From assembly GCA_019116525.1 (NCBI GenBank), contig DXBM01000063.1:1-43183 (forward strand): a stretch of 43,183 nt of DNA, read 5' to 3'. Source of the stretch: Candidatus Olsenella pullistercoris. Lineage in GTDB: Bacteria > Actinomycetota > Coriobacteriia > Coriobacteriales > Atopobiaceae. Shown here in pieces: positions 28,059 through 29,814 of the stretch. A program made the translations under genes and the position numbers. The first letter of the stretch is position 1. Each line of letters starts with the position of its first letter. The notes beneath the pieces are model-generated. The model worked only from the letters and a program-made list of their open reading frames with translations, had not been told where the DNA came from and made no database searches.

Positions 28059-28064
28059 TATAGT
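28059..28064 (+). promoter_or_regulatory. Possible -10 of the argG leader transcript
   Basis: TATAGT lies 67 bases upstream of the putative leader peptide. A convincing -35 or an ArgR operator was not found, so this is a weak assignment. Confidence 0.35.
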
Positions 28065-28130
28065 CAGCCTCGTCAGACAGCCGCGAGCCAATAGCCCGCG
28101 CCCGCTCAACATCTGAGGAGGCCAACGTTG

Positions 28131-28205
28131 ATGAACGTTCACAGCGCATCCGCGTATGCCGCCCTCCTTGCAGCCCGACGCCAGAACCGACGAATCACGC
28201 CCTAG
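28131..28205 (+). CDS. Putative arginine leader peptide of argG
   Basis: A 24-codon reading frame starts with ATG, preceded by the strong ribosome site GAGGAGG. The peptide begins MNVHSASAYAALLAA and continues with Arg-Arg-Gln-Asn-Arg-Arg, encoded CGA CGC CAG AAC CGA CGA (28176-28193), ending Ile-Thr-Pro-stop. Four Arg codons in six positions just before the stop is what a ribosome-stalling sensor of arginyl-tRNA needs. Its stop codon touches a segment able to form an antiterminator, and a terminator hairpin follows before argG. The whole unit is undescribed to my knowledge and rests on sequence logic only. Confidence 0.7.
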   Translation: MNVHSASAYAALLAARRQNRRITP

Positions 28206-28280
28206 ATGTCGCGTGTCGCTTCAGCATGCCGGTTCTTATCGCCGGCCCAGGCTCCAGCGCCCCGCGACGTCGGGGCTTTT
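28205..28280 (+). promoter_or_regulatory. Arginine attenuator upstream of argG (antiterminator and terminator)
   Basis: The terminator is GCCCCG (28259-28264) paired with CGGGGC (28271-28276), followed by TTTT. A competing 9-bp pairing joins GATGTCGCG (28205-28213) to CGCGACGTC (28263-28271), with one G-U, and takes bases from both arms of the terminator stem. A small hairpin GCCGG / CCGGC (28228-28246) fits inside the antiterminator. A ribosome stalled at the Arg codons leaves 28205-28213 free for antitermination; one that reaches the stop codon covers it and lets the terminator form. Confidence 0.65.
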
Positions 28281-28317
28281 CTGTGAAACGGCAACCCACC
28301 CAATGAAAGGGAACATC

Positions 28318-29547
28318 ATGGCAGAGAAGGAAAAGGTCGTACTCGCATACTCCGGCGGTCTGGACACGTCCGTCATCGTCAAGTGGCTGCAGGTCGAGCG
28401 GAACCTCGACGTGATTGCCATCTGCGGCAACGTGGGCCAGGACGAGAAGGACCTCTCCTGGATCAAGCAGAAGGCCCTCGACATGGGCGCCATCGCCTCC
28501 GAGGCCATCGACATGCGCGCCGAGTACGCCGAGAAGATCCTCTCCAAGGCCATCTGGGCCAACGGCAAGTACGAGGGCGTCTACCCGCTGCTCTCCGCGC
28601 TCTCCCGCCCGCTTATCTCCAAGCACCTCGTTGACGTCGCGCACCAGTACGGCGCCAAGTACATCGCGCACGGCTGCACCGGGAAGGGCAACGACCAGGT
28701 GCGCTTTGAGACATGCATTCGCGCGCTCGACCCCGAGCTTGAGATTATCGCGCCCGTGCGCGAGTGGGACCTCACCACGCGCGACTCCGAGATGGAGTGG
28801 GCCGAGGCCAACGGCGTGCCGGTGCCCACCACCAAGAAGAAGCCCTACTCCATCGACGACAACCTCTGGGGGCGCGCGATTGAGTGCGGCGTGCTCGAGG
28901 ACACCTGGAACAAGCCGCCCGCGGACATCTGGACGATGACGGCCAACCTCGAGGACTGCCCGGCCGAGCCGGAGGAGGTCGTGATCTCCTTTGAGGAGGG
29001 CATCCCCACCGCCATCAACGGCGAGAAGATGGACCTGCTCAGCCTCATTATCAAGGCCAATGAGATCGCCGGCCGCAACGGGTTCGGTCGCATCGACATG
29101 ATCGAGGACCGCGTGGTGGGCATCAAGAGCCGCGAGTGCTACGAGTGCCCCGCCGCCCTGCTGCTCATCCAGGCGCACCAGACCCTCGAGCAGCTCTGCC
29201 TCGACGCCGAGACCCTCAAGCAGAAGGCCAAGATGGACGTTGAGTGGGCGTCCACGGTCTATCGCGGCCTGTGGTTCTCGCAGAACCGCAACGCCATCGA
29301 CGCGTACAACGCCTACACGCAGAAGTACGTCACCGGTGACGTGCGCATCATCCTGTGCAAGGGCGGCCTGTTCGTTGACGGCGTGCGCTCGGAGTACAGT
29401 CTCTACGACTACAACCTCGCCACCTACGACGAGGGCGACACCTTCGACCACACCGCCGCCGAGGGCTTCATCGTGCTTCACGGTCTCCAGTCCAAGACGT
29501 GGTCCAAGGTGCAGGGGCCTGGCTCCGGCCTCCAGCCCGTGCACTAA
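28318..29547 (+). CDS. argG: Argininosuccinate synthase
   Basis: The 409-residue enzyme condenses citrulline and aspartate with ATP in arginine biosynthesis. The N-terminal ATP loop is LAYSGGLDTSV. HGCTGKGNDQVRFE, REWDLTTRDSEMEWA, the PYSIDDNLWGRAIECGVLED stretch and SRECYECPAALLL are strong family landmarks. The ATG at 28318 has AAAGGG upstream; in-frame sequence extending to 28156 belongs to the leader region and is rejected. It is followed by a terminator and a repeat element before argH, so the two genes are adjacent but probably have separate control points. Confidence 0.97.
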   Translation: MAEKEKVVLAYSGGLDTSVIVKWLQVERNLDVIAICGNVGQDEKDLSWIKQKALDMGAIASEAIDMRAEYAEKILSKAIWANGKYEGVYPLLSALSRPLISKHLVDVAHQYGAKYIAHGCTGKGNDQVRFETCIRALDPELEIIAPVREWDLTTRDSEMEWAEANGVPVPTTKKKPYSIDDNLWGRAIECGVLEDTWNKPPADIWTMTANLEDCPAEPEEVVISFEEGIPTAINGEKMDLLSLIIKANEIAGRNGFGRIDMIEDRVVGIKSRECYECPAALLLIQAHQTLEQLCLDAETLKQKAKMDVEWASTVYRGLWFSQNRNAIDAYNAYTQKYVTGDVRIILCKGGLFVDGVRSEYSLYDYNLATYDEGDTFDHTAAEGFIVLHGLQSKTWSKVQGPGSGLQPVH

Positions 29548-29573: not shown

Positions 29574-29617
29574 CGGCGGTCGGTTGGGGAGCCCTGACCG
29601 ACCGCCGTTCATTTGTT
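29574..29617 (+). terminator. Terminator after argG
   Basis: An 11-bp perfect stem CGGCGGTCGGT (29574-29584) / ACCGACCGCCG (29597-29607) with a 12-base loop is followed by TTCATTTGTT, which is the start of the terminal inverted repeat element. Confidence 0.75.
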
Positions 29618-29739
29618 GGGTGGTTTCTGGGCGCCACCTTGAGTAGATCCCACATGAGACTTGCATAGAACCGCAGGTAGACGTGGTGTCCCGGCTGGGG
29701 CCTACTCGGAGGGTTCCCTAGAAACCACCCAACAAATGA
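29609..29739. repeat. 131-bp element with terminal inverted repeats (copy 2)
   Basis: The ends are 20-bp perfect inverted repeats (TCATTTGTTGGGTGGTTTCT). The interior shares blocks with copy 1 at 796-924, such as CCTTG(N)AGTAGA near the left, GTGTCC in the middle and CTACTC near the right, but has diverged elsewhere. Both copies are in the same orientation relative to these blocks. The left end abuts the argG terminator and the right end lies 75 bases before argH. Confidence 0.88.
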
Positions 29740-29814
29740 AGTGGGAGACAATGCTGGGGCGCGCGAGCGCTCTGATAAGCTGGTTTTGAGACAAAACGCG
29801 AGGAGGGGGCCACG

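Follow-up and report, generated by a model that had tools for sequence, protein, structure and literature searches.

For the synthesis of arginine in bacteria, the standard textbook example is control by the ArgR repressor. An arginine-responsive upstream ORF on an arginine-pathway gene, as proposed here for a bacterial argG, is known from fungi in the form of the arginine attenuator peptide; this is a eukaryotic arrest peptide, which causes stalling when arginine is high and works at the level of translation. The attenuators of the trp, his, leu and ilv systems resemble the argG leader in that a short ORF, in which the amino acid of the pathway is encoded by tandem codons, is combined with mutually exclusive antiterminator and terminator structures placed before the first gene. 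The argG leader differs from these systems in the amino acid, i.e., arginine, in the target gene argG and in having no protector hairpin at equilibrium. For actinobacteria, trp, leu, ilv and cys leaders were described, and in the portion of that source considered here neither argG nor "Arg codons" occurs (PMC1262725); the portion considered of a further source does not contain the word "arginine" (PMC2965389). For Salmonella speF, the portion of the source considered here describes that two consecutive Arg codons in the leader orf34 sense arginine shortage and that ribosome pausing raises expression, the output consisting of susceptibility to RNase G, termination by Rho and the masking of a ribosome site (PMC6386406). 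According to the same portion, orf34 controls polyamine synthesis without an intrinsic terminator as output, whereas the leader described here precedes a gene of arginine synthesis and has a predicted terminator; moreover, orf34 belongs to gamma-proteobacteria, uses the codons AGG CGG and encodes a peptide unrelated to that of the argG leader. An assignment of the latter to the SpeFL/orf34 family (DUF2618) was rejected, as the peptide has no HIRRT and the gene is argG, not speF. Among the matches listed in open-licence PMC full text, none concerned a bacterial gene of arginine synthesis under the control of an attenuator with arginine codons. The logic of attenuation is long known for other amino acids; arginine, argG and the clade appear to be new.

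The window, i.e., the whole stretch of DNA that was analysed, comprises 43,183 nucleotides, and the features of the leader region are collected in Table 1. The preliminary description had named the downstream gene argG and the class Coriobacteriia, and both assignments hold: the gene scores above the cut-off of the NCBIfam argG profile, and its nearest named relatives are from Thermophilibacter and Olsenella strains, alongside uncultured Atopobiaceae, Thermophilibacter being classified in the Atopobiaceae, Coriobacteriia, Actinomycetota. One argG was detected in the window's own genome (82% complete), and a match is present in all 31 congeneric genomes. The likely start of argG is at 28318, while the mechanical ORF list opens the same frame at 28156; argH is located after argG in the window.

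Upstream of the leader ORF, a weak candidate for a -10 box reads TATAGT or TACACT wherever the aligned slice of a congener extends that far; a promoter scan returned no site. The inverted repeat upstream of the leader ORF is strongly conserved within the genus, and its centre CAATAGC is present in 28 of 29 congeneric upstream regions and absent from the outgroup L029. A further repeat was observed between argG and argH at 29606-29740, an element with inverted ends of about 24 bp, of which a 72% copy lies at 796-926 of the window on the opposite strand and shorter matches on the contigs C34 and C71; judged from these copies, it is probably a small, MITE-like repeat family.

Table 1. Positions of the features of the argG leader region in the window.
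Feature	Position	Strand	Evidence
Candidate -10 box TATAGT, weak	28059..28064	+	inferred
Inverted repeat GCCGCGAGCCAATAGCCCGCGCC in the 5' leader, conserved	28080..28102	+	congeneric comparison
Shine-Dalgarno sequence GAGGAGG of the leader ORF	28115..28121	+	sequence; conserved
Leader peptide ORF MNVHSASAYAALLAARRQNRRITP	28131..28205	+	24 codons and TAG; conserved in congeners
Control codons CGA CGC	28176..28181	+	in frame; CGA at 28176, CGC at 28179
Control codons CGA CGA	28188..28193	+	in frame; CGA at 28188, CGA at 28191
Antiterminator 5' arm, overlapping the stop codon	28199..28213	+	predicted fold; pair counts
Intrinsic terminator hairpin, predicted	28259..28276	+	terminator scan; -10.8 kcal/mol; pair counts
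Antiterminator 3' arm, overlapping terminator loop and 3' arm	28263..28276	+	predicted fold; pair counts
Short T-run TTTT, then CTGT	28277..28280	+	sequence
Shine-Dalgarno sequence GAAAGGG of argG	28305..28311	+	sequence
argG, argininosuccinate synthase, predicted target gene	28318..29547	+	NCBIfam TIGR00032, 496 bits vs cut-off 268

Very probably, the leader controls argG by ribosome-mediated transcription attenuation and senses how far tRNA-Arg(ICG) is charged. A 24-codon frame with a strong ribosome site and the codons CGA CGC and CGA CGA near its end, as reported in the preliminary description, is indeed present, so that the window has, as far as the DNA can tell, the translatable leader ORF of an attenuator together with conserved tandem codons for the end product of the pathway. 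A Pfam scan of the leader peptide returned no family, and an Rfam scan of the leader region gave one chance-level match (E 2.1, on the other strand, 14 bits vs a gathering score of 75); a T-box or other Rfam regulatory RNA was rejected, as the leader has no Rfam family match.

In the proposed mechanism, a ribosome would translate the ORF while RNA polymerase traverses the leader. If arginyl-tRNA is scarce, the ribosome would halt at one of the four CGN codons and leave the antiterminator 5' arm wholly or largely free to pair with the emerging 3' arm, which would block the terminator and allow argG to be transcribed. If arginyl-tRNA is ample, the ribosome would proceed towards the stop codon at 28203 and cover the 5' arm, the terminator would form and transcription would end near 28280. 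The sequences and the modelled folds themselves contain the ORF with its codons, two structures that exclude each other, the conservation of these elements and a flip point just past the Arg codons; termination in the cell as well as a response to arginine and its magnitude are inferred.

The predicted folds are consistent with such a switch. The terminator with its T-run, which had been claimed before, was recovered by the terminator scan, placing a predicted intrinsic terminator between the leader ORF and the first gene. The pairing of 28205-28213 with 28263-28271, claimed to exclude this terminator, does so and extends beyond the claim, since 28199-28203 can also pair with 28272-28276 with A28204 bulged, resulting in an antiterminator of 14 bp that spans the entire 3' arm of the terminator. 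For the fold of 28196-28290 (95 nt) a z value of -4.38 was obtained, which is equalled by 0 of 200 shuffles. For each codon position the RNA downstream of the ribosome was folded, the ribosome edge being assumed 13 nt past the first base of the A site. The probability of the terminator is 0.00 whichever of the four Arg codons occupies the A site (for the stalled state, the shuffle mean is 0.61 and 0 of 30 shuffles are as low), at the following ATC it is 0.005, and it rises to 0.92 at ACG and to 0.96 at CCC and at the stop codon; the exclusive antiterminator is thus predicted to be freed by stalling. The equilibrium fold of the ribosome-free leader is the antiterminator as well, with a terminator probability of 0.00. 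At equilibrium a protector hairpin is thus not apparent, and read-through would be expected of a leader that is not translated, in contrast to the trp leader of the textbooks.

Whether both stems covary in related genomes, as the preliminary description had proposed to examine, was assessed by pair counts in 24 congeneric leaders, in an alignment that kept four poorly fitting rows (L004, L008, L016, L029), and the result differs between the stems. For the antiterminator, 94.6% of 312 cells are paired and 6 cells are changed on both sides, values reached by 0 of 500 shuffles in each case; the double changes are spread over 3 pairs, a number that 15 of 500 shuffles reach, and the number of pair types is 6 (106 of 500 as high). 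Slid controls have at most 54.8% of cells paired, yet show up to 2 pairs and 4 cells with double changes. The terminator, with 93.8% of 144 cells paired, has a single double-changed pair, which 255 of 500 shuffles match, i.e., no excess over the controls; because one slid version even scores higher, it is without covariation support.

Within the genus, 29 argG upstream regions were used, without those of G022, whose sequence starts within argG, and of G019, whose argG is broken. The leader ORF is in frame in all 29, comprises 23-33 codons and starts with ATG in 27 and with TTG in two (L026, L027). The position of the stop codon varies: it follows RRITP or RRI, or lies 7-9 codons past RRI, and these longest leaders run through the antiterminator arm. 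The first Arg pair is reduced to a single codon or missing altogether in L004, L006, L007, L008, L011 and L016, the second pair CGA CGA is retained in 29 of 29, and in the alignment of 24 congeneric sequences CGA CGA ATC is invariant. A search for exact copies of the motif CGACGYCAGNNNCGACGAWTC gave a single match in each of 24 of the 31 congeneric genomes and none in a reversed control. A terminator was called in 25 of 28 distinct congeneric leaders, and in 24 of these 25 a flip is predicted, which takes place 1-3 codons past the last Arg codon of the core. No T-tract terminator was called for L004, L008 and L029, and for L016 the terminator probability at the stop codon is no higher than 0.39, so the output step may vary. 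These sequences stem from close relatives and are not independent tests. The loss of the Arg codons or of the alternative pairings among relatives had been named as a possible refutation; the relatives mostly passed, and the expected conservation of in-frame Arg codons extends to other genera, where the core recurs.

Beyond the genus, 60 argG upstream regions across the order and 80 named loci, many of them from already sampled genomes, were considered, and the overall sample is weighted towards close relatives. By a motif rule that was devised after such peptides had been seen, a leader was called in 29 of the 60 order-wide regions. Among 127 distinct argG upstream regions of at least 300 nt, a leader was called in 74 and not in 53, the latter including a group with argR directly before argG, the genera g13, g53 and g70 and members of the families f3-f6 and f8; L126, a leader called by the script, proved spurious and does not enter the codon counts or the fold tests. 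The N-termini outside the genus are unrelated and only the Arg-rich core is shared: an RRQxRR-like core is also present in other Atopobiaceae and in Slackia, and a variant RRQRAISRRR in Collinsella. Accordingly, MICTARSHGMVSLRRQNRRISPAMSRALA (Tractidigestivibacter), MAFASNMNNSLRRQDRRTTLRRQRVLTPVR, MFFNFTNASLRRQSRRNTLRRARVLSAVLIR (Slackia isoflavoniconvertens) and a peptide ending in IATRRQRAISRRR (Collinsella ihumii) have only this core in common with the other leaders. A search for CGACGYCAGNNNCGACGWWYC in 120 genomes of the order resulted in 15 exact matches, 14 of them upstream of argG and the remaining one antisense inside ftsW (G139, contig 9). With one mismatch allowed there were 43 matches vs 15 in the reversed control, and of the 28 one-mismatch matches at least one lies upstream of argG (G139, contig C6).

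Overall, a terminator was called in 51 of 69 distinct leaders and none in 18, among them the Tractidigestivibacter-type leaders L039, L041 and L046, in which the Arg core is present without a called T-tract terminator; leaders of this kind may have another output, or the terminator scan may be too strict. Four Collinsella leaders fell outside the fold test because the called hairpin includes the last Arg codons. For the 47 testable leaders, the mean terminator probability is 0.20 with the ribosome stalled at the first Arg codon, 0.93 at the stop codon and 0.73 when stalled with a shuffled interval, and in 31 of the 47 it lies under 0.2 in the stalled state and exceeds 0.8 at the stop codon. 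Among the 22 testable leaders from outside the genus, 11 flip at the expected position (0 to +2), three of them unevenly (L038, L068, L140), while of the other 11 seven keep the terminator throughout, three flip earlier and one never forms it.

The argG genes of L050/L147 (Collinsella ihumii) and L051 are about 85% identical to the window's argG and stand behind a Collinsella-type leader, and most Collinsella argG genes are only about 59% identical to it; from these identities, the gene may have been replaced or transferred in L050/L147 and L051. The genome G209 (L035, L036) has four argG matches, two of them near full length.

The choice among the Arg codons is strongly biased. The 69 distinct leaders contain 391 Arg codons (CGA 223, CGC 124, CGU 38, AGG 5, CGG 1), and CGA makes up 57% of them vs 13% (66/516) in 11 long ORFs of the window, which were hand-picked and checked for gene status only in part; none of the 16 Arg codons of argG is CGA. 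Binomial p-values computed for the leaders take no account of relatedness and carry no weight here. In the complete congener G028, 52 tRNA matches were obtained, the tRNA-Arg anticodons being ACG (twice), CCG, UCU and CCU, and among its scanned tRNA loci there is no tRNA-Arg UCG. Because this congener has tRNA-Arg ACG and no UCG, the codons CGA, CGC and CGU, i.e., 385 of the 391, are assigned to one common isoacceptor. The tRNA-Arg ACG carries inosine at the wobble base.

The same RNA switch might alternatively be driven by nascent-peptide arrest, in which RRQxRR would stall the ribosome together with free arginine, ornithine or another ligand. An RR[QHR] motif is present in 63 of the 69 distinct leaders, in 57 of these 63 the codon after the first RR is CAG, and an Arg-Arg leader with a conserved peptide domain is known from Salmonella speF orf34, as described in the portion of the source considered (PMC6386406). 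However, the Q of the core is replaced by H in L048 and by R in L058, suggesting that the Arg codons, rather than one fixed peptide, persist, and the residue between the two pairs varies (N, M, I, S, D, G, A). Moreover, a peptide sensor would be indifferent to synonymous codons and thus to the preference for CGA, and an arrest caused by arginine would raise argG at high arginine, which is the wrong sign for a biosynthetic gene. Because the non-Arg residues vary and the synonymous choice is extreme, we consider peptide arrest improbable. The CGA-rich core could also be kept as RNA only, in helices such as CCGACG/CGUCGGG, with an incidental ORF and a switch that answers another factor. The core CCGACG can indeed pair with CGUCGG of the terminator, and CGACGAATC and CGTCGGG are invariant in the congeneric alignment, but the ORF lengths vary by whole codons over the 29 congeners with ribosome site and start retained, other genera with different terminators retain in-frame Arg pairs, and in 60 of the 63 leaders CGA opens the first pair, the position of which is upstream of the antiterminator arm. 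Given that the N-terminus differs in steps of whole codons with the reading frame preserved, we give a pure RNA element a very small probability.

That argG is controlled by the ArgR repressor, the leader being additional or vestigial, would agree with the detection of ArgR (PF02863) in 18 of the 31 congeners, among which is the window's own genome. However, ArgR was undetected in the other 13 of the 31 congeners searched, among them five that are 98-99% complete (G004, G013, G028, G029, G030); these five all have the leader, that of G030 (L004) without a called terminator. This reading has hardly any probability left, while ArgR may act on argG in addition to the leader. The Arg-codon leader is confined to argG within the loci searched, as judged from their sequences: argC scores above its cut-off in 30 of 31 congeners, and argC, argJ, argB and argD are clustered in the window's own genome, and the argC upstream regions of 10 congeners have no leader like that of argG, none with RRQ or a resemblance by eye, while ORFs with at least 4 Arg in 12 codons are present in 4 of the 10 (L179, L180, L182, L183).

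A separate arrangement was observed in Eggerthellaceae, where at eight loci (L075, L077, L078, L080, L082, L083, L092, L208) argR, identified by Pfam for L208 and by eye from the ends of the genes for the others, lies directly upstream of argG. This argR ends in RRR-stop with the last codons CGA CGA CGY TAG, and its last Arg codons and stop lie inside a conserved hairpin GCGACGACGYTAGTCGTC, which is followed by a T-rich stretch in most cases. The hairpin sequence is present in 22 of 244 genomes of the order, once in each; wherever an argG position was listed (20 of 20 cases, excluding G168 and G180), it is found 165-291 nt before argG. In L206 (G146) and L088, the same hairpin with RLRRR-stop closes a 42-codon ORF, which for G146 has no Pfam or NCBIfam match; it looks as if a leader peptide had replaced argR. 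Collinsella-type leaders end with a similar hairpin, for which 11 matches were found in the 244 genomes, 6 of 6 checkable ones upstream of argG. The argR gene of Eggerthellaceae may itself be the leader ORF of argG. It is a tentative and rather doubtful generalization that several families of Coriobacteriales read Arg codons for argG, that in many Eggerthellaceae argR is the leader and that tRNA-Arg(ICG) is sensed via the rare codon CGA. If true, repressor and attenuator of Eggerthellaceae would be one shared reading frame.

If the attenuator reading of the argG leader is correct, a group of gut bacteria would regulate argG through translation, also where ArgR is undetected. The unusual choice of CGA and of codons for one isoacceptor would moreover offer a natural way to test whether leaders, as theory holds, employ those codons that respond most sensitively to starvation.
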